From NCBI RefSeq assembly GCF_902779965.1, contig NZ_CACZDK010000001.1:62001-126000 (forward strand): a stretch of 64,000 nt of DNA. The letters run 5' to 3'. Position numbers and translations under genes: made by a program. Under the pieces are notes generated by a model. It was not told where the DNA came from. It saw only the letters and a program-made list of their open reading frames with translations, and searched no databases. Below, piece by piece: positions 12,994 to 24,408 of this stretch (positions are counted from its first letter, which is position 1; each line of letters begins with the position of its first letter). This DNA comes from Fibrobacter succinogenes. GTDB taxonomy: Bacteria > Fibrobacterota > Fibrobacteria > Fibrobacterales > Fibrobacteraceae.

Positions 12994-13758
12994 ATGATGA
13001 AAAATAGAACGCTTTGTGCATTAGCTGTTATTCTCTCGTCTCTAGTCTGTACATTCTCTTCTAATGTTTACGCTGAGGCTCCGCGGGTTGTGCCGACGAT
13101 TCTTGATTCGATTCCGCATGAATCTTCGCATTTTACGCAAGGCCTTTCGTTCGATGGCAAGGAACTGATTGAAACGACTGGCTTGTATGGAAAATCGGGG
13201 TTGTACCGCCGCACGCTGGACGGAAAAATTCTCGATTCAGCGCGACTCGAAGAACGCTATTTTGGTGAAGGTTCCGTAAAATTAGGAGATGAAATTTATT
13301 ACCTGACCTGGAAATCGCACAAGGCTTTTATTTTCAAGAGCAAGCCGTTTAAAAAGAAAGGCGAGTTTCGCATTCCGACAGAAGGCTGGGGACTTACGCT
13401 TTGGCGTGACCAGCTTTTGATGAGTAATGGCACCGATGAACTTTTGCAAATTGCGCCGGGCAGCTTTGAAGTGACCGGAAACATTAAAGTTCGCGATGGT
13501 CGCTATTCGATTAAACTTTTGAACGAACTTGAAGTTGTCGGAAATATTTTGTATGCGAATATTTGGCAGACGGATTTGATTGCCGAAATTGAACTCCCGA
13601 GCGGGAAGGTGTTGCGCTATATTGACTTCTCGAAAAAAGCGGGGGAGATTCGTGACCGATTCCCCGGCGTAGATGTTCTGAACGGCATCGCCTACGATGG
13701 CAAAGATTTTTGGATTACAGGCAAGCTCTGGCCGCAGATTTATAAAGTCAAGTTCTAA
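12994..13758 (+). CDS. Glutaminyl-peptide cyclotransferase, beta-propeller type
   Basis: 254 residues with a signal peptide (to about YAEA, residue 28), so it acts outside the cytoplasm. It converts N-terminal glutamine of proteins to pyroglutamate. Signature words: IPHESSHFTQGLSFDGKELIETTGLYGKSGLYRR, then YFGEGSVKLGDEIYYLTWKSHKAFIF, TEGWGLTLWRDQLLMSNGTDEL, LNELEVVGNILYANIWQTDLIAEIE, and FPGVDVLNGIAYDGKDFWITGKLWPQIYKV. These follow the plant/bacterial-type glutaminyl cyclase family. The start is ATGATG (12994/12997) without a ribosome binding site but with TATTTT seven bases upstream. Its stop codon overlaps the stop of the convergent gene. Confidence 0.87.
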   Translation: MMKNRTLCALAVILSSLVCTFSSNVYAEAPRVVPTILDSIPHESSHFTQGLSFDGKELIETTGLYGKSGLYRRTLDGKILDSARLEERYFGEGSVKLGDEIYYLTWKSHKAFIFKSKPFKKKGEFRIPTEGWGLTLWRDQLLMSNGTDELLQIAPGSFEVTGNIKVRDGRYSIKLLNELEVVGNILYANIWQTDLIAEIELPSGKVLRYIDFSKKAGEIRDRFPGVDVLNGIAYDGKDFWITGKLWPQIYKVKF

Positions 13759-15194
13759 AAACCGCGTTCTTCCCACTTGGCGTTATTGCCGATGTTGCGG
13801 ATTAAGCGGAAACCGCCATTCATAACAGAACCAACTTTCCAGTACCCATAATTTATTTTTTTCCAATAAGGGAAAAAGTCGGCTTTGCCAAATTTGTGAT
13901 TTAGTGAAACTCGATATTCTCCACCCTTTAGACAGGAAGGTAGTGACGATTTAAATGAAAAAGGATTCTTTTCTTCAAATAGCACATATTCTCGTACTAA
14001 GCCAAACATGTCGTGTAGGCCAAAACCATTCGGTATCTGCTGACCAACGGGTTCCGATAAATGCAATTCTTTTACATTATTGGGTCTAACACTATTAAAT
14101 TTTGCGTATTTCAGGGCTTCTTCAAAAGTTGCTGACGTATCACCCCAAGGTGCTTTATTTTTTTTATCGCCACCACGTGCAAGCATCATCCATTCATCAT
14201 AAAAAGGAATTCGGTAACCATTAGAGGAATAGTCAACAGAAACCTGTATATACTCGTCATTATGTATCGTAAAATCCCAATATTTTATTACATATTTACC
14301 TTTTGATATGATTGTCTCTGCATTTTCACTAGTTTTTGAAAAAATGTAGCAAGGCTTTAAGTTCTCGCGGATACTGCGAGCGTTCGCATATTTCAGAGCT
14401 TGGTATAGAGAAATCATATTTGCCGCTGTATCGTGAATCGCACAATTTTGGTTACGAATGCTAGTCTTTTTTCTATTTACCCAATCTTTATGGGCGATTT
14501 TTATCGGTAACGATTCATGATATGATGAGTTTTCCGGAATACTATCCCACATCAATTGTGTAAATTCACAATTTGTTATAGGATATTTATCAACTAAATA
14601 TGTACCCGTAACAGACACAAGCCTTTCTGGATCTTCGCTCTTGAAAAGTTCGGAAATTTTTTCCCAATCCTTGCTGTATTTGTTAAAACCTAGCAGAACT
14701 TCTTCATTTTTGAAATCCAAATATTTCATCCCGACAGCTAAATTAATTTTATGGGAAATCTTCACATCCGAGAAATACACATTAAGCGTTTCAACCCCAA
14801 TAAGAGTCGACGTTTGGAATGCTAGGCACGAATCGCTAGATATAATCGCTTTTAAGGAAGTTTCCCACGCGACAACAGGCTCGTCAACACAAATTTTAAC
14901 GATTTCGTTTTTTTCTACTTCGAGCCAGTTTTCTTTGTCCAAAGTATCGCGGCTTACATTAAATGTTCTTTGAATTTTATCTTCTGGAATCTTTTCCAGA
15001 TTCTTTCTCGGCTTGACGCCTTCAACCGGCTTTTTCACCAAAATTGAACCATGAAATCTTTTTGCAAGCGCAACAAGCTTTGAATACTCCAAGCTGTCCT
15101 TATACGCACCGCGGCTTTCTCCGTGCTTGTCATAATAGAGTTGAGCATTCGCAAGCGCAAAGTACATCGTTAGGAATAACAAAATCTTTTTCAT
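13755..15194 (-). CDS. SUMF1/formylglycine-generating-enzyme-like secreted protein
   Basis: 479 residues with a short signal peptide (MKKILLFLTMYFALANAQ). The first ~190 residues are unassigned. The C-terminal half matches the sulfatase-modifying-factor fold: VTGTYLVDKYPITNCEFTQLMWD, then a NGYRIPFYDEWMMLARGG core, a GFGLHDMFGLVREYVL stretch (family consensus GL.DM.GNV.EW) and a final GGFRLIRNI. The W of the usual 'NVWEW' is replaced and no cysteine pair of true formylglycine enzymes is seen, so it is probably a structural or binding member, as often in Fibrobacter. Tail-to-tail with the glutaminyl cyclase gene (4-base overlap). Confidence 0.75.
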   Translation of the reverse strand: MKKILLFLTMYFALANAQLYYDKHGESRGAYKDSLEYSKLVALAKRFHGSILVKKPVEGVKPRKNLEKIPEDKIQRTFNVSRDTLDKENWLEVEKNEIVKICVDEPVVAWETSLKAIISSDSCLAFQTSTLIGVETLNVYFSDVKISHKINLAVGMKYLDFKNEEVLLGFNKYSKDWEKISELFKSEDPERLVSVTGTYLVDKYPITNCEFTQLMWDSIPENSSYHESLPIKIAHKDWVNRKKTSIRNQNCAIHDTAANMISLYQALKYANARSIRENLKPCYIFSKTSENAETIISKGKYVIKYWDFTIHNDEYIQVSVDYSSNGYRIPFYDEWMMLARGGDKKNKAPWGDTSATFEEALKYAKFNSVRPNNVKELHLSEPVGQQIPNGFGLHDMFGLVREYVLFEEKNPFSFKSSLPSCLKGGEYRVSLNHKFGKADFFPYWKKINYGYWKVGSVMNGGFRLIRNIGNNAKWEERGF

Positions 15195-16578: not shown

Positions 16579-16992
16579 ATGGATTGTCGAATCTTAGTTC
16601 GTTTCATTGGAATCCAACAGGATTTAGATGCCTTGTGGAATGCTTTCATGGAACATTTTCCGGAAGCGGAACTTCCTAGCGTGGATTCCGGCGAATGGTA
16701 TTCCGTTGAGGATTTCATGACGGACGAGTATGAGTGCCGTTTCGAGGAACTTCCTGAATCAGAACTGTATGCGGTCGATGGAACGTTCCTTGTCGAAAAC
16801 GAACCTCCAGAGGATGTCTTGACCGAAATTTTGGAACGCTTCGAACGTGTGTACGCCGTGTTCAAGTGGTCTACGATGGATGTTGGGGTAGGCTGCGGCA
16901 CTAGCGAAGGCTGGGGCGAGTTCAATGCGGACCGCACTGACGACGGTTCCGACGAAGCAAACGAAATTTCCGAAGCAGTTCTCGGATTTTAG
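16579..16992 (+). CDS. Small acidic protein of unknown function
   Basis: 137 residues from ATG 16579, set by AAAGGAGG seven bases upstream (a TTG two codons earlier is not needed). No signal peptide or membrane segment. Highly acidic (many D/E), with words such as SGEWYSVEDFMTDEYECRFEELPESE and SEGWGEFNADRTDDGSDE. No family is recognised. The 3' end overlaps the convergent barrel gene by 4 bases. Codon use looks like its neighbours, so it is likely a real cytoplasmic protein. Confidence 0.65.
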   Translation: MDCRILVRFIGIQQDLDALWNAFMEHFPEAELPSVDSGEWYSVEDFMTDEYECRFEELPESELYAVDGTFLVENEPPEDVLTEILERFERVYAVFKWSTMDVGVGCGTSEGWGEFNADRTDDGSDEANEISEAVLGF

Positions 16993-17798
16993 AACATCCA
17001 GCCGATAGCGATGATGGTTTCGAAAACCGTCTTTTCTAAAAGATGGGTGCCGTATTTGTTGTTATCCACGTAAATTTCGTAAGTCGTATGATTGGCATTG
17101 GTACTCTTTTGAAATTTGGGAGACTTTACGAATGTCCCCAAGTTCATTTCTGTTGTCAGGATAAATCTTTCGTAGCATAAGTTGAAGCCGAAACCTGCGG
17201 TGATATAGAGCGCTAATTCTTTTTCTTTTAAATGCATTTCGTTGGTGTAGGAACTGGAGTCGCGATGAATGTCAATGTTGTAAAGTGTCGGAACGGCTTG
17301 GATGTGGATAAAACCTTCCGCTTGGCTTTGGCTCTTTTTGTGGTTGTTCCCTAAGGCGTCTACGTATTGATAAGTTCCTAAGTTGCGGCGCGCCCAAAAC
17401 CATTTCACGGCTATGGGTGCTGTGAAAATGTCCATGGTTCCTTCTGCATCAGTGTGTTTTTTGATGTCTGTCTTGTTGTATCCGATATATCCGAATCGTA
17501 GTCTAGCGCTCCAAAAATCGCTGAACAAATATTCGTAGCCCAAAGAAAAACTCAAGCTTTGCGATGTCAAAAAGAGTGATAGTCGATGATAACTATTTGG
17601 AACGGCGCTCAGACTCACTAAGTCGACGGTATCTTCAGGTGCGGTCGTGGCATCTGTTTTTGAATTTTGAGATGTATTGTTGAGTGTGTTGTCAATGTAT
17701 GTGACTTTATGTGTATCTGTGTAAATGGTGTCAACGATTTGTTCTTGTGAAAATGCACTTGCAATGCAGAACAAAAGAATAACAAGTATGTATCGCAT
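16989..17798 (-). CDS. Outer-membrane beta-barrel-like protein (third of three)
   Basis: 269 residues, signal peptide ending near AFSQ (residue 18), then a short VDTIYTDTHKVTYIDNT segment. From residue ~70 alternating amphipathic strands rich in aromatic residues follow (HRLSLFLTSQSLSFSLGYEYLFSDFWSARLRFGYIGY, ELALYITAGFGFNLCYERFILTTEMNLG), ending TIIAIGWMF with a terminal phenylalanine as in outer-membrane barrels. One base separates it from the upstream gene, so they are cotranscribed. No enzyme signature. Likely a small porin-like or structural barrel; the specific role is unknown. Confidence 0.7.
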   Translation of the reverse strand: MRYILVILLFCIASAFSQEQIVDTIYTDTHKVTYIDNTLNNTSQNSKTDATTAPEDTVDLVSLSAVPNSYHRLSLFLTSQSLSFSLGYEYLFSDFWSARLRFGYIGYNKTDIKKHTDAEGTMDIFTAPIAVKWFWARRNLGTYQYVDALGNNHKKSQSQAEGFIHIQAVPTLYNIDIHRDSSSYTNEMHLKEKELALYITAGFGFNLCYERFILTTEMNLGTFVKSPKFQKSTNANHTTYEIYVDNNKYGTHLLEKTVFETIIAIGWMF

Positions 17799-17799
17799 A

Positions 17800-18681
17800 T
17801 TAGAATCCTAAGTTAAGTTCGCTGCCGAAGAATAAACCTTTGCCGTTCATCCCGTTAAGAAAGTGATAGCTGACGCATTCGTTGTTGTCATCGCCCCAAT
17901 TGAGATATTGACGGGCTTTGTCGCTCCAGTATTGGTAACCGAATGTTATACCAAAGTCCCATAGCGTATTTCCCATATTTCTTATATATCCCAGTGTAGC
18001 GTTTGCAGAAAAACCTGCATCAAAACTTCCTTTCATGTTTTTTTCACGCTTGAGGTTCTTGTCGTAAGCAATTTTGAGAGTTGGGCTTCCTAAGGCTTGA
18101 ATATAAAAAGAAGAACTATTGAGAGGTGTGTTTCTATGTGTCACTTTGAGCTTTTCTGGATTGGCTCTGTCGATAGAGAATGTGAGTAGATATTGTCTGT
18201 ACCCAATACCCGGACTTATAATACTTCTGAAGCCTTCCCATGTTTTTTCTTCATCACTACTGATTTTAAAGGAGTGGTCTCCAAAGAGCATGATGGTGGA
18301 AATGTTAAACATGGTGGAGCCTCGATGTTCATTTTCGATTTCCCAACTCAAGTCAATCATGGGAGCGCCGAACCATATTGAAACAAGGCTAAATCCGCTT
18401 TTGATGTTGATATAGAACTTTCTTCCTGGCGGGATCGTATCCGTACTGTAATCCAAGATGTATTCATTTTTCTCTTTTGTTTTGAACGTCGGTTGCTCTT
18501 GGGATTGTGCCTGCTGACGAGCCGATTCTTGAATATAGACCGTATCCGGTGGGGATGCAACGTAAAGTGTGTCGGTGATTCGCTTCTGGACGTAAATTGT
18601 ATCTGTTACAGCAAGTGTCGGGCTTGCCAAGAACGCAAAAATCGCAATGAAAATCCATTTAAGATATTTAAATTGTTTCAT
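17800..18681 (-). CDS. Outer-membrane beta-barrel-like protein with DT[VIL]Y repeats (second of three)
   Basis: 293 residues. Signal peptide (to about TLAV, residue 25) followed by three repeats of the pattern DT-[IL/V]-Y-[VI] (TDTIYVQ, TDTLYVA, PDTVYIQ) and a Gln/Lys-rich stretch. Residues ~75-293 are predicted strands (FYINIKSGFSLVSIWFGAPMIDLSWEIE, GYRQYLLTFSIDRA, LWDFGITFGYQYW) ending in FGSELNLGF. Its ATG overlaps the last base of the upstream gene. Shares architecture, though little direct sequence, with the genes on either side. Function unknown. Confidence 0.7.
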   Translation of the reverse strand: MKQFKYLKWIFIAIFAFLASPTLAVTDTIYVQKRITDTLYVASPPDTVYIQESARQQAQSQEQPTFKTKEKNEYILDYSTDTIPPGRKFYINIKSGFSLVSIWFGAPMIDLSWEIENEHRGSTMFNISTIMLFGDHSFKISSDEEKTWEGFRSIISPGIGYRQYLLTFSIDRANPEKLKVTHRNTPLNSSSFYIQALGSPTLKIAYDKNLKREKNMKGSFDAGFSANATLGYIRNMGNTLWDFGITFGYQYWSDKARQYLNWGDDNNECVSYHFLNGMNGKGLFFGSELNLGF

Positions 18682-19484
18682 TAGAAAATCCCCACGCCAA
18701 TATTTAATCTCAAATCAAGTTGGAGGCCTGCAGAAATGTAAGATATTTCTTTTTGGAGCAAATCCTTGTCGGATACTCCATACGAGAATCCATATTCAAA
18801 GCCGAATGTAGCTCGTTCCCCTCTAAATGCGTGGCCTGCATGCAAGTATGGCGCGAATAATGTTGCTGTATCGTGTCGAGAATGTGGCCTGTCGTTGTAC
18901 AAATCGGGTTTATCGTCCCAAGTGTTTATGTAGTCGTATTTGCGGATGAGCCAATTTCCACCTACATCAAAATAAAAACTGTATTTTGAGGGCCTAAAGT
19001 AATGGCGGTAGCCTAAGCCAATGTCGTATTGCGAAATATTGCCTTCGTATATGGCGTCATTAAAGACATTATTTCCGATTTGAGGGATCATTTTGCTATA
19101 GCGGAAATTCAAAATAAGCGAATTTTTGCGGCTTGTTGAAAATTCGATATTTCCACCAACCGAAGTAAATGTAGTGTCGATGAGCCACGGGATTGAAATG
19201 AGGTCGAAGTGCAAATAAATGAGATGATGGGTGTAGCTCGTATCATTGCGGAGGTATTTTGTAGTGTCCAATCCGAGTGGATTTTCTTTAGTAGGTGCGC
19301 AACATTTTTTATTACTATAGACTGTATCTGTTCTTGGTTTTATCGGAATATAAACGGTATCGCGAATGATTTGTTCCACGTAAACGGTATCGTGAATCTC
19401 GCTTCCGTTGTCTGGAATCGTTCCGTTTGGTATGGCGCTGAAGGCCGAAATACATAACAATAAAATTAAAGACCAAGTTTTCAT
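18681..19484 (-). CDS. Outer-membrane beta-barrel-like protein with DT[VI]Y repeats (first of three)
   Basis: 267 residues from the ATG at 19484 (a TTG six codons upstream is less likely). Signal peptide MKTWSLILLLCISAFSA, then HDTVYVE, RDTVYIP and TDTVYS repeats before a CC pair, then barrel-like strands (LIYLHFDLISIPWLID, GLGYRHYFRPSKYSFYFDVGGNWL, RATFGFEYGFSYGVS) ending in LRLNIGVGIF. It heads a tight three-gene unit on the minus strand and lies 110 bases downstream of the radical SAM gene, in the same direction, so common transcription is possible but not shown. Confidence 0.7.
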   Translation of the reverse strand: MKTWSLILLLCISAFSAIPNGTIPDNGSEIHDTVYVEQIIRDTVYIPIKPRTDTVYSNKKCCAPTKENPLGLDTTKYLRNDTSYTHHLIYLHFDLISIPWLIDTTFTSVGGNIEFSTSRKNSLILNFRYSKMIPQIGNNVFNDAIYEGNISQYDIGLGYRHYFRPSKYSFYFDVGGNWLIRKYDYINTWDDKPDLYNDRPHSRHDTATLFAPYLHAGHAFRGERATFGFEYGFSYGVSDKDLLQKEISYISAGLQLDLRLNIGVGIF

Positions 19485-19594
19485 TGGTCTCAAATATAAC
19501 AACTGGTATTTTTTTTATTTGCTTCTAGTATTTCTTTTTGATAAAGCGTATTTTTGGGAGATTTTTTGGAAAAAAAAAGCGTTGAAATGCATGC

Positions 19595-20695
19595 TTAGAT
19601 GTTTTTTCTGGAGCTTGCTTCAACTAACGTGTCACAGATTTCTGCGAGCATTCTTTCGTGAGTGCACACTTCGGGTGACACTCCTTCTATTGTTCCCGTC
19701 GTGTAATAGCTTGTGCAGGCGCATTCGTGGGCGCAACAGCGGTAGCGGATATCGCATCCTTCACATTCTTTTTTGTCGTTGTCTAAAAAGTTGCGGATTT
19801 CTTCGCAAGCGGTTTCGTCAAAGCCTGTGAAAACGTTCCCCTGCACATATAGGGTGTTTGGGTTTGATGTTATAAAACGTGTGCAGGGGAATATGTTTCC
19901 ATTGGTGGCCACTCCGACTGCGCCATTGTACACGTGGCATGAATAAAGTCTGTATCGTAAATTTGTAAGAACTAGCTTTACTTTGTCGTGAATTGTGCCG
20001 AGGAAAAACTTTTCGCCTTTTTCGCGACATTCTTTCCAATATTGCGCCATTTTCTGGTATTGAATGGCTAGCTTGTCAAAGTCTTCGCCGGTCCATTTGC
20101 CATCAAAATCAACGCTTGTGGTGAGGCTTTGGAATCCTTGTTCGTGCAGCCACTTGACGCTTTCAAAAAGTGTGTTTACATGTGCGCGAGTAACCGTGCT
20201 TAATGCGACTGCTCCAAGTTTTGCAAAACGCGGAATGTTGGGCTCGATAGCTTTAAAACTTCCGGTCCCGTTGACTGTACGGCGGGCGATATCGTGGTGG
20301 TGTTCGGGGCCGTCGAGCGAAAGATAAATGCGGAAATGCTCTTTTTCGCAAAAATCAAAAAACTCATCGTCGAATAACGTTCCGTTTGTGTTTACTGCAA
20401 AATTCAGAATGAAATTGCGGGCAATTTTGCCGTTGTCCATCGCTTCATCAACAACCGCTTTTGCGAATTCGACACCTTTATAAATGGCATCTCTTCGCAA
20501 AAGCGGCTCCCCCCCAAAGAACGTGATGTTCAAGAACTGCTGCTTGAAAAAAATCGTACGCTCCAACCCGATGCGGATGGACTGTTCAAGGGTCTCGTCG
20601 TCCATGACCGTTTGGCGGGCGGCTTGCGATTCTTTGTAATAGCAGTATTTACAGCGCAGGTTGCACTGCTCTGTAAGGCAAAGGACTAAGTTCAT
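19595..20695 (-). CDS. Radical SAM/SPASM peptide-modifying enzyme
   Basis: 366 residues. The radical SAM cluster motif CNLRCKYC (Cys11, 15, 18) binds the SAM-cleaving 4Fe-4S cluster. It is followed by FFGGEPLL, NTNGTLF and YLSLDGPEHHHD, the standard barrel motifs. The C-terminal SPASM region carries CHVYNGAVGVATNGNIFPC and a dense cysteine group CEGCDIRYRCCAHECAC...C that would hold auxiliary clusters, as in peptide maturases and anaerobic sulfatase maturases. The ATG overlaps the stop of the upstream lipoprotein gene (ATGA), which implies translational coupling and makes that lipoprotein, or its paralog, the likely substrate (inference). No sulfatase is nearby. Confidence 0.88.
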   Translation of the reverse strand: MNLVLCLTEQCNLRCKYCYYKESQAARQTVMDDETLEQSIRIGLERTIFFKQQFLNITFFGGEPLLRRDAIYKGVEFAKAVVDEAMDNGKIARNFILNFAVNTNGTLFDDEFFDFCEKEHFRIYLSLDGPEHHHDIARRTVNGTGSFKAIEPNIPRFAKLGAVALSTVTRAHVNTLFESVKWLHEQGFQSLTTSVDFDGKWTGEDFDKLAIQYQKMAQYWKECREKGEKFFLGTIHDKVKLVLTNLRYRLYSCHVYNGAVGVATNGNIFPCTRFITSNPNTLYVQGNVFTGFDETACEEIRNFLDNDKKECEGCDIRYRCCAHECACTSYYTTGTIEGVSPEVCTHERMLAEICDTLVEASSRKNI

Positions 20696-21327
20696 GCCTG
20701 AATGTCATCCTGCTCGAACGTCGTCACCATGCTGAAAATTAAACAGCCGTCAGGGTCTTTGCATAGATCAACCTTGCATCTAGTAGTAGGGTCAGATGGG
20801 TCGCAGAGCGGGTCTTCGGCTTCGCTGCTGCTGGACATGGTCTCGGACGAGCTTGATGCGGGTTCTTTGGCTGAACTGCTGAGTGGTGCAACGGATGAAC
20901 TGCTAGAACTTTCGGAGGATGAAGGTGAAGAAATAAGAGGTGCTCCCGAGGAAATGGGAGGTTCGAAAGAACTGCTGCTGGGGAAATCTTCATATGGAGG
21001 GATGACGCCGGCTTCTTGGATTGGCTCCATTGAAGAACTGCTCAGCAGTTTTGCGGACGAAAGCGCTTCGACAGCTTCGCTGCTAAGACGTTCTCCGCTG
21101 GAAGAAATGTCGATGTAGCTTGAACTGCTGAATTGTTCTCCACATGCGACTTCACCGCATGTTGGTTCGGTTTCTTGCGTTTTTTTGTCGCTGCCAGTTG
21201 CCGAAACGCTGTCATCGCAGGCGGTTGTTCCGATGGACGCTGCGATTCCGAGTGCGGTTGCGATTGCACTTTTGGTAAAATTGTTCAATTTTGAACTATT
21301 AACGACTTTTTTCTTTTCGATTTTCAT
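20692..21327 (-). CDS. Serine-rich lipoprotein, candidate radical SAM substrate 1
   Basis: 211 residues. N-terminus MKIEKKKVVNSSKLNNFTKSAIATALG.. with lipobox GTTAC (Cys37), unusually long and lysine-rich before the hydrophobic stretch. Then about 120 residues of Ser clusters (SSSS repeated about ten times) and a C-terminal segment with six cysteines ending CKDPDGCLIFSMVTTFEQDDIQA. The last ~20 residues match the neighbouring paralog in the pattern C[KR]D.D......SMV[TS]T[FY]E..D. Overlaps the radical SAM gene by 4 bases. Predicted to be exported and lipid-anchored; the conserved tail is the best candidate for modification. Confidence 0.8.
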   Translation of the reverse strand: MKIEKKKVVNSSKLNNFTKSAIATALGIAASIGTTACDDSVSATGSDKKTQETEPTCGEVACGEQFSSSSYIDISSSGERLSSEAVEALSSAKLLSSSSMEPIQEAGVIPPYEDFPSSSSFEPPISSGAPLISSPSSSESSSSSSVAPLSSSAKEPASSSSETMSSSSEAEDPLCDPSDPTTRCKVDLCKDPDGCLIFSMVTTFEQDDIQA

Positions 21328-21353
21328 TTTTTACCTAACACTCTTTTAAATGC

Positions 21354-21932
21354 TTACGTCATGTCGGACATTTCGTATGTGGATACCATGCTAGCCATCA
21401 TGCCACGGTCGTCATCGCGGCACATAATGACATGAATTCCTGTAGAGTCTACTTTTTCGCAAGTCCTTTCTCTTGGCCATGGGGAAATAACGGAGTCGCT
21501 TGATGAACTGCGGGGCTTTTCTACAAAAGTGCTGCTGGAACTTTCGGATGAACTGCTGGATTCACTCTCAACGCTGGAGGAACTTTCTTTCTCCTGGCTT
21601 GATGAACTTTCAACTTTTTCAGAAGAACTGCTTTGAAGTGGCGTACTAGAAGAGCTGCTAAGTGCCGCTGATGAAAGAGCTTCTTCAACGGAACTGCTGA
21701 GGTGTTCGTGGCTCAGCGGAATATCGGCTACAGAAGAACTGGATGCTGTTTCTTGGGTCTTGGATGCATCGCTGCTCGTGGGCTCAACGGGGCCCATTAC
21801 TTGACCACTTTCGGCATCGCTTAAACACCCGCTCACAAAAACGGCGGACATGCCAAGCATAGAGGCGATACCCACCTTGGAGGCATTCGACAGACGCGAA
21901 TTATCGGTCACTTTCTTCTTCTCGATTTTCAT
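21354..21932 (-). CDS. Serine-rich lipoprotein, candidate radical SAM substrate 2
   Basis: 192 residues from the ATG at 21932, which has AAGGAG upstream (an in-frame ATG 8 codons earlier is less likely). N-terminus MKIEKKKVTDNSRLSNASKVGIASMLGMSA.. and lipobox FVSGC (Cys35), nearly the same leader as the downstream paralog. Middle: serine clusters in a repeated SSSS-x-E/K pattern. C-terminus: MCRDDDRGMMASMVSTYEMSDMT, matching the tail motif of its paralog. It has fewer cysteines than the paralog, so cysteine is not the shared target. First gene of the unit; the 26-base gap to the next gene supports an operon. Confidence 0.8.
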   Translation of the reverse strand: MKIEKKKVTDNSRLSNASKVGIASMLGMSAVFVSGCLSDAESGQVMGPVEPTSSDASKTQETASSSSVADIPLSHEHLSSSVEEALSSAALSSSSSTPLQSSSSEKVESSSSQEKESSSSVESESSSSSESSSSTFVEKPRSSSSDSVISPWPRERTCEKVDSTGIHVIMCRDDDRGMMASMVSTYEMSDMT

Positions 21933-22176: not shown

Positions 22177-22671
22177 CTAAGTCTTGTCTTCACCGCGGAG
22201 CATAATGACCTTGCCCGTGCGGATGTATTCCACGATTTCGAACTTCTGCAACAAGCTCTTGAGGGTATCGACCTTGACGCTGTTGCCCGTGATCTGGATA
22301 ATCATGGAAGTCATTGTCATATCCACCGTGTTGGCGTGGAAATGGTCGCAAAGCTGCAAGATTTCGGTGCGCTGTTCTGCAGTGCAACGAACCTTGATGA
22401 GTGCGAGTTCCTTTTCCACAGCGTCTGTACCAGTATGGTCCTTGGCCTGAACCACGTCCACGAGCTTTTCGAGCTGCTTGATGATCTGCATCAAGATTTC
22501 GGGATTGCCGTGAGCGATGATGTTCATGCGGCTGAAGTTCGGGTCGAGCGTGGGGGAGACGACGAGAGAATCGATGTTGTAGCCACGGCGGGAGAACACG
22601 AGTGCAATACGCACGAGCACGCCCGGGCGGTTTGCCACTAACAAGCTAATAGAATGTGCAATATCTTTCAT
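22177..22671 (-). CDS. ilvN: Acetolactate synthase small (regulatory) subunit
   Basis: 164 residues; ATG 22671 with GGAG nine bases upstream. The N-terminal ACT domain (HSISLLVANRPGVLVRIALVFSRRGYNIDSLVVSPT) is the valine-sensing site that feedback-controls the large subunit; the C-terminal domain (VRCTAEQRTEILQLCDHFHANTVDMTMTSMIIQITGNSVKVDTL) matches the ALS_ss_C fold. Complete length (160-170 is usual). Lies 18 bases after the large subunit gene and forms the first step of branched-chain amino acid synthesis with it. ilvH is an equally valid symbol; the two are paralogs. Confidence 0.95.
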   Translation of the reverse strand: MKDIAHSISLLVANRPGVLVRIALVFSRRGYNIDSLVVSPTLDPNFSRMNIIAHGNPEILMQIIKQLEKLVDVVQAKDHTGTDAVEKELALIKVRCTAEQRTEILQLCDHFHANTVDMTMTSMIIQITGNSVKVDTLKSLLQKFEIVEYIRTGKVIMLRGEDKT

Positions 22672-22689
22672 TTTCAAATTCTCCTGTTA

Positions 22690-24408
22690 TTACGTCGATC
22701 CGGTGGGTTTTTCGAGCTGCGTCTTGGGCTGTTCGGTAATCATGCTCGTAATCGGAGCACCAGCCGGAATCATCGGGAACACGTTGTCTTCCTTTTCGCA
22801 TTCGCAGTGGATGAGGATCGGGCCATCGTTGTAGTCCAAAGCCTTCTGGATCACGCGTTCAGCATCAGCCGGGCGCTTAATGCGGAGACCTGGGATGCCA
22901 TAAGCTTCGGCGAGCTTCACGAAGTCCGGGTTGCCCTTCATATCGACGCTGGAATAGCGGTGGTCATAGAAGAGTTCCTGCCACTGACGCACCATGCCGA
23001 GGTACTTGTTGTCCATCACAAAGATCTTGATGGGGAGCTTGTGGATGGCGGCCGTTGCAAGTTCTGCTTCGGTCATCTGGAAGCCGCCGTCACCGCTGAA
23101 GCTGCAAACCGGCCAACCGGTTTCGTTGCCGAATGCGGCACCGATAGCAGCCGGGAAGCCAAAGCCCATCGTGCCTGCGCCACCGCTGGAGTGGAGCTGA
23201 CGCGGATAGTTGATGTGGAAGAACTGTGCAACCCACATCTGGTGCTGGCCCACGTCTGTCGTGACGATTGCTTTGCCATGAGTCAATTCGCTCACGGTAG
23301 CAACGATGTGCTGCATACGGAGACCGCCCTGCTTCGCGTAAGTGAGCGGATAGCGCTTCTTCCAAGTCTGGCAAGTCTTGATCCAGTCAGCGGTATCAAG
23401 CTTGTTCACCATCGGGAGGAGCTGTTCCAAAACGAGCTTTGCATCACCGCACATGAAAACATCCGGCTGCAACACCTTGCCTTCTTCGGCAGGGTCAATG
23501 TCGATGTGCATCTTCACGGCGTTCTTGCAGAATTCGCTGAGCTTACCGGTAATGCGGTCGTCCCAACGGCTACCGATCGAAAGGATCAAGTCGCATTCGA
23601 GAACAGCCTTGTTGGCGTAAATCGTGCCGTGCATGCCGAGCATGCCGAGCGAAAGTTCGTGGTCGGTCGGGAAAGCGCCGAGGCCGAGCATGGTGCAGCA
23701 AACTGGAGCACCGAGCTTTTCGGCAAGTTCCTTCACCTGGCGGGATGCGCCAGAAATCATGGCACCGTGACCCACGAGGAGGAGCGGCTTCTTAGAATTC
23801 TTGATGTAGTCGGCGGCCTTTTCGACACTTTCTGTAGAAGCGTAAGTCGGAATCTTATAGCCGGGGAGGTCCATCTGGTCGGTGAACGGAGCCGTGCAGG
23901 GGCCTGCAGTGACATCCTTCGGGAGGTCGATAAGCACTGGGCCCGGGCGGCCAGAACGTGCGATGTGGAAAGCTTCCTTCATCACGCGCGGAAGGTCGTT
24001 GGTGTCCTTGACCAAGTAAGAATGCTTCACGGTTGCAAAAGTCATACCGCTAGTGTCGCATTCCTGGAAGGCGTCCTTGCCCAAGTTCGGAGTGGTCGTC
24101 TGTGCGGTAAGCACGACGATCGGGCTAGAATCCATGAGAGCTGTATAAATACCTGTAAACGTGTTCGTTGCACCCGGACCGCTAGTGACAAGAGCTACAC
24201 CGACCTTACCGGTCTGGCGGGCATAACCGTCAGCCATGTGGGTTGCGCCCTGTTCATGACGGCTGAGCACAACTTTGATGCTGGAGTCGAGGATGGCATC
24301 GAACATCGGAATGGCCGATCCACCGGGATAGCCGAAAATAGTATCAACGCCTTCACGCTTGAGGCATTCGATAATCACTTCGGCACCACTTAAGGTCTTA
24401 TTTGCCAT
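22690..24408 (-). CDS. ilvB: Acetolactate synthase large (catalytic) subunit
   Basis: 572 residues. Thiamine-diphosphate enzyme that condenses two pyruvates to acetolactate (or pyruvate with 2-oxobutyrate) for valine, leucine and isoleucine. The catalytic glutamate is in RHEQGATHMADGYAR (E52); VTSGPGATNTFTGI and LIDLPKDVTAG are family hallmarks, FAD-binding mid domain follows, and GDGGFQMTEAEL...VMDNKYLGMVRQWQ is the ThDP/Mg GDG-N motif. AGGATA ribosome site upstream of ATG 24408. Operon with ilvN downstream, ended by a strong terminator. ilvI would be an alternative name. Confidence 0.96.
   Translation of the reverse strand: MANKTLSGAEVIIECLKREGVDTIFGYPGGSAIPMFDAILDSSIKVVLSRHEQGATHMADGYARQTGKVGVALVTSGPGATNTFTGIYTALMDSSPIVVLTAQTTTPNLGKDAFQECDTSGMTFATVKHSYLVKDTNDLPRVMKEAFHIARSGRPGPVLIDLPKDVTAGPCTAPFTDQMDLPGYKIPTYASTESVEKAADYIKNSKKPLLLVGHGAMISGASRQVKELAEKLGAPVCCTMLGLGAFPTDHELSLGMLGMHGTIYANKAVLECDLILSIGSRWDDRITGKLSEFCKNAVKMHIDIDPAEEGKVLQPDVFMCGDAKLVLEQLLPMVNKLDTADWIKTCQTWKKRYPLTYAKQGGLRMQHIVATVSELTHGKAIVTTDVGQHQMWVAQFFHINYPRQLHSSGGAGTMGFGFPAAIGAAFGNETGWPVCSFSGDGGFQMTEAELATAAIHKLPIKIFVMDNKYLGMVRQWQELFYDHRYSSVDMKGNPDFVKLAEAYGIPGLRIKRPADAERVIQKALDYNDGPILIHCECEKEDNVFPMIPAGAPITSMITEQPKTQLEKPTGST

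Follow-up and report, generated by a model that had tools for sequence, protein, structure and literature searches.

The window analysed here, a stretch of 64,000 nucleotides from a Fibrobacter succinogenes genome (contig NZ_CACZDK010000001.1), carries on its minus strand a cassette of three genes, in which lipoprotein 2 is followed by lipoprotein 1 and then by a radical SAM/SPASM enzyme (Table 1). The two lipoproteins share a signal-peptide leader starting with MKIEKKK and a C-terminal tail. The initial annotation had described the leaders as nearly identical, and MKIEKKKVVNSSKLNNFTKSAIATALGIAASIGTTAC and MKIEKKKVTDNSRLSNASKVGIASMLGMSAVFVSGC agree with that description, as does the overlap at 20692-20695, where lipoprotein 1 and the enzyme gene share an ATGA. 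The tail pattern given there also fits both tails (CKDPDGCLIFSMVTTFEQDD and CRDDDRGMMASMVSTYEMSD), except that the spacer between C[KR]D.D and SMV has five residues rather than six. The ilvH and ilvB genes mark a fixed chromosomal position of the cassette and lie outside the system.

Table 1. Features of the cassette and its conserved neighbours in the window
Feature	Coordinates	Strand	Remarks
Enzyme gene	19595..20695	-	Radical SAM/SPASM; 366 aa; belongs to the type-I clade within a PapB-like family of Fibrobacterota
Lipoprotein 1	20692..21327	-	211 aa; proximal putative substrate
Lipoprotein 2	21354..21932	-	192 aa counted from its own ATG; distal putative substrate
Leader/lipoprotein signal peptide, lipoprotein 1	21217..21327	-	aa 1-37; last residue is the lipobox Cys
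Leader/lipoprotein signal peptide, lipoprotein 2	21825..21932	-	aa 1-36
Conserved tail, lipoprotein 1	20695..20763	-	CKDPDGCLIFSMVTTFEQDDIQA; tail alignment and tail HMM, E 9.9e-18
Conserved tail, lipoprotein 2	21357..21422	-	CRDDDRGMMASMVSTYEMSDMT; tail HMM, E 2.8e-14
CxxxCxxC radical SAM motif (C11, C15, C18)	20642..20665	-	In 112-113 of 113 family members
SPASM region	19634..19939	-	C253-x12-G-x4-C271 ... C311-x2-C314-x5-C320-x4-C325-x-C327 ... C344 ... C354
ilvH	22177-22677	-	Upstream neighbour; seen in 25 of 36 related loci
ilvB	22690-24408	-	Upstream neighbour; seen in 20 of 36 related loci

Downstream of the enzyme gene, three successive genes on the minus strand (16989-19502) encode exported proteins, possibly outer-membrane beta-barrels, with DT(V/I)Y segments near each N-terminus; a Pfam search of the trio returned no family over its cut-off. 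The trio was found again in 5 of the 36 related loci, and it was left out of the system because its distance varies among loci. The minus strand also encodes, at 13755-15194 and about 4.4 kb downstream of the enzyme gene, a protein in which an FGE-sulfatase domain (formylglycine-generating enzyme-like) scores 65.9 bits.

The enzyme scores well over the cut-off of the Pfam radical SAM model (PF04055, 61.2 bits against 29.5). Against the SPASM model PF13186 it reaches 16.2 bits (cut-off 21.5), and the cysteine pattern C-x12-G-x4-C, C-x2-C-x5-C and further cysteines are present and invariant. A full SPASM region with extra cysteines had been read from the single sequence; of the nine cysteines in the region of the window enzyme, eight (C253, C271, C311, C314, C320, C325, C327 and C344) occur in all 113 enzymes of the family and C354 in 108. 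Four additional cysteines (C6, C116, C223 and C297) are present in 47-49 of the 49 type-I enzymes and in none of the 64 enzymes of other clades. The type-I clade was set at about 68% identity once the lipoproteins were known; the tree of 113 enzymes supports it independently, with all 49 enzymes that have type-I precursors in one clade (support 100). The enzyme begins right at the radical SAM domain and has no N-terminal extension in which a leader-binding (RRE) domain could fit. In a structure predicted from 17 close sequences, the mean pLDDT was 55.6 and the SPASM part was unmodelled, at very low confidence.

We followed the family through 168 Fibrobacterota genomes, taking about 110 loci and reading their upstream genes. 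The enzyme family occurs in 64 of these genomes, nearly all from one genus. The tail HMM has matches in 46 of the 168, and these are exactly the 46 with a type-I enzyme; tails in genomes without the enzyme, named beforehand as the observation that would speak against a coupled system, were found in no genome of the set. Within the genus, the tail is present in 46 of 46 genomes with a type-I enzyme and in 0 of 34 without one (Fisher 2e-23, a descriptive value because the genomes are related and not independent). Nearly all tail matches (94 of 96) lie 0-3 kb upstream of a type-I enzyme on the same strand; the other two are weak, chance-like matches inside frames of 640 aa. Between one and five tailed lipoproteins with the common leader stand before each type-I enzyme, one of them directly upstream in 49 of 49 cases, and in 30 of these the tail match ends at the enzyme start. 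The leader HMM finds matches in 58 of the 60 enzyme-positive genomes of the genus and in 1 of the 20 enzyme-negative ones.

Across 87 distinct type-I lipoproteins, the Ser, the Met, one Thr and one Cys of the tail, the latter preceded by a hydrophobic residue, are invariant, and the V (81/87), E (84/87) and D (86/87) are nearly so. Across the wider family the stretch between Cys and SM varies, and invariance is limited to S, M, T and one Cys. The Thr that is invariant in the protein is encoded by all four of its codons. Over ten codons of the tail, pS is 0.76 and pN 0.16 (pN/pS 0.21), with synonymous sites near saturation. The tail is thus under strong purifying selection, and chance is excluded as a source of its conservation, since S, M and T stand at 87/87 despite near-saturated synonymous sites. 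The CX3D of both window tails was considered as a conserved core and rejected, because an acid stands at Cys+4 in only 22 of the 87 homologues. When cysteines are counted over the last 60 residues, each of the 37 sequence clusters has an even number (two in 25, four in 10 and six in 2), and the partner of the invariant Cys lies upstream in some tails and downstream in others.

At the other end of the protein, M1, I3, E4, K5, A23, G27 and C37 are invariant in the leader alignment. The middles had been described as only poly-serine, which does not hold across the family: 63 of the 87 homologues carry a DI[PSK].S....SS....ALS element, many have xAGx motifs (an AG motif is present in 57 and absent from 30, all of them tailed) and many carry a CGxxxCG pair. 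NCBIfam gave no match for lipoprotein 1 and only chance-level matches, with E up to 1, for lipoprotein 2; family profiles revealed no catalytic domain in either.

Among the NCBIfam matches of the enzyme, the ranthipeptide maturase PapB (NF047865, 207.3 bits) comes first and QhpD, which matures quinohemoprotein amine dehydrogenase (TIGR03906, 139 bits), second; the SCIFF maturase (TIGR03974, 133 bits) is also one of the best-scoring families. Each score lies below its cut-off (340, 453 and 425 bits, respectively). PapB (PMC9413430), QhpD and SCIFF maturases (PMC8172795) are peptide or protein crosslinkers that make Cys thioethers. The system resembles freyrasin PapA/PapB in its full SPASM region and in a putative core with Cys and an acid. 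However, PapB substrates are short free peptides, whereas the putative Fibrobacter substrates are lipoproteins with a signal peptide, CX3D is not conserved in them and their tail cysteines are paired. As both the score and the core motif (CX3D/E) fail, the cassette was not filed as a PapB member. The target of QhpD is a whole protein and not a short peptide, but this substrate is unrelated, and no qhp genes were seen in the cassette. The SCIFF maturase CteB (PDB 5wgg) is the closest solved structure by sequence, and its chemistry is a Cys to Thr thioether; its N-terminal region of about 100 aa is missing from the window enzyme, the alignment starting at residue 99 of 5wgg.

Three other families were considered and rejected. 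The TIGR04133 (rSAM_w_lipo) pair also combines a SPASM enzyme with lipoproteins encoded beside it, and it had been asked whether the cassette belongs to such radical SAM/lipoprotein families of Bacteroidota. It does not: the window enzyme scores 28.2 bits against a cut-off of 425, and the window lipoproteins match no family and differ in leaders and tails. For the FibroRumin maturases (TIGR04136), SPASM peptide maturases whose family takes its name from Fibrobacter, the score is 46 bits against a cut-off of 400. Association with sulfatases, the alternative raised in the initial annotation, was not found either, as the anaerobic sulfatase maturase model TIGR03942 gives 97 bits against 349 and the conserved neighbours are ilvB and ilvH. 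The same genome does encode two TIGR04133 enzymes (620 and 606 bits) on another contig (C23; L228:2472-7859), with small lipoproteins interleaved.

The precursors fall into three types, all encoded ahead of the enzyme gene, and precursor type tracks enzyme clade. Type-II lipoproteins, whose enzymes form a single clade (4/4, support 98), end in SM[PAV][ST]..GH[IV]..P, mostly with SM[PA][ST]; the Ser does not vary in either type I or type II. Type-III lipoproteins lack an SM tail, carry repeated [AS]G[DEIV] motifs and have M[DN]IKK.KVEKNREWS as a related leader; precursors in other genera are similar to these, one of them without poly-serine. Cysteine is absent from the tail in 2 of 5 type-II precursors and absent after the lipobox in 20 of 30 precursors of types II and III.

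We propose that the cassette probably encodes a dedicated radical SAM/SPASM maturase together with its lipoprotein substrates, whose tail would be altered in the cytoplasm in a RiPP-like manner. Since the enzyme is always found beside lipoproteins with a common signal peptide and tail, it probably alters the tail before export. A RiPP system is recognised by a conserved leader and a conserved core that are encoded beside, and co-occur with, the modifying enzyme, and this arrangement is what we find. The enzyme would recognise the 20-residue n-region of the signal peptide (MKIEKKK...LS..K..IA) as a RiPP-type leader. It would then modify the C-terminal patch SM[VI][ST]T[FY]E..D in the cytoplasm, a step to which linkage, co-occurrence, tree congruence and constraint point. 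Sec export and lipidation at the lipobox Cys, predicted from the sequence, would come next. Outside the cytoplasm, the even-numbered tail cysteines may form disulfides, and the modified head would be displayed, membrane-anchored, on top of a flexible serine-rich stalk. The initial annotation had offered either the tail or the serine linker as the site of modification; genomic linkage, co-occurrence and the agreement of precursor type with the enzyme tree speak strongly for the tail. The linker lacks conservation, and its modification is therefore unsupported.

As to the chemistry, we tentatively favour a reaction on the SMx[ST] core that does not involve Cys, on the grounds of cysteine parity and of the Cys-less substrates of the sister enzymes. 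The main competing reading, which we consider unlikely though not negligible, is a thioether maturase of the PapB, QhpD or SCIFF kind that would join the invariant tail Cys to the beta or gamma carbon of Asp, Glu or Thr, giving a C-terminal macrocycle, that is, a ranthipeptide on a lipoprotein. The best-scoring families are thioether makers and the top PDB match is a SCIFF maturase. One tail Cys is present in every type-I lipoprotein, with Thr, Glu and Asp as invariant or nearly invariant acceptors, and CX3D occurs in both window tails. The additional cysteines of type-I enzymes track Cys-bearing tails, and QhpD is a precedent in which the substrate is an entire protein and the Cys-Glu/Asp spacings are 6-9 (PMC8172795). 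However, the scores of the PapB type all fall below curated cut-offs, the acid at Cys+4 is a minority feature, and 9 of the 87 tails have no acid between Cys and SM. The conserved Thr lies at a distance of 13-23 from the Cys in type-I tails, compared with the 0-6 intervening residues tolerated by PapB (PMC9413430). The even number of tail cysteines suggests disulfides rather than a thioether on one Cys, which needs no such parity when the acceptor is not a Cys. Precursors of the sister enzymes without Cys in the tail or after the lipobox likewise count against a thioether.

Another reading places the modification elsewhere, on the xAGx repeats of types I-III or on the leader, the tail being kept for some other purpose, for example to bind a partner or to reach the surface. 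The recurrence of xAG[DEIV] in type-III and other-genus precursors that lack the SM tail, and in the 57 type-I proteins noted above, would fit this, as would leader conservation, the most widely common feature of the precursors. We regard it as doubtful, given that the AG motif is missing from 30 type-I proteins that are all tailed and that the tail tracks the enzyme clade perfectly. It is improbable that the genes are mere operon neighbours, with the enzyme acting on something else and co-transcribed with surface lipoproteins. Such an arrangement would accommodate the 34 related enzymes of a further clade, which have no adjoining lipoprotein and in some cases lie beside hemB, purF or relB-like genes, but it is at odds with 46 species-level genomes in which co-occurrence and adjacency are perfect and with precursor types that track the enzyme clades and always precede the enzyme. 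It is very improbable that the enzyme works like the anaerobic sulfatase maturases, which are SPASM relatives, and oxidises the unvarying Ser in SM[VPA][ST], with formylglycine or another such carbonyl as the product. The sulfatase motif is S-x-[PA]-x-R. The type-II SM[PA][ST] is near this motif and its Ser is kept throughout types I and II, but the Arg is lacking at the motif position, type I has Val or Ile instead of Pro or Ala, the sulfatase-maturase score is far under the cut-off and the lipoproteins have no detected catalytic domain.

Returning to the proposed maturase, its lipoprotein substrates may represent a new class of surface lipoproteins modified by radical SAM enzymes. In such a class the signal peptide would serve as the RiPP leader, sister cores would be SMV[ST]T[FY]E..D, SMxSxxGH and repeated xAGD, the chemistry would proceed without Cys and disulfides would form separately, after export. 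We found no description of this enzyme/lipoprotein system in the open-access literature, and in a 2014 RiPP survey of anaerobes Fibrobacteres are listed with none of the RiPP classes that were scored. The cassette is probably a previously undescribed route to modified surface proteins that is specific to the genus of rumen Fibrobacter. If this is true, a major group of rumen fibre degraders would own enzymatically modified surface lipoproteins. It would also suggest that, with the signal peptide used as a leader, the export of lipoproteins can be linked to their maturation by radical SAM enzymes, and a single enzyme family with three substrate core types would offer a natural series on SPASM recognition.

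The leader HMM also matches orphan small exported proteins of 81-160 aa, many with PL[AG]G[GDIV] and some without a lipobox Cys, that have no radical SAM neighbour. Their neighbours, identified by eye on the basis of sequence, are tgt, gyrB-like, dapB or opp genes. These orphans could be modified in trans. With such orphans away from any enzyme and 34 enzymes free of lipoproteins, the partners in this family are not always adjacent. Elsewhere in the genome (C1:143692-144852; L230:3193-4353), a protein of 386 aa with many (M/L)KYGYPCG(V/A)xD repeats, which looks like a multi-core RiPP precursor, is encoded directly before a SPASM radical SAM enzyme (L230:4425-5885).
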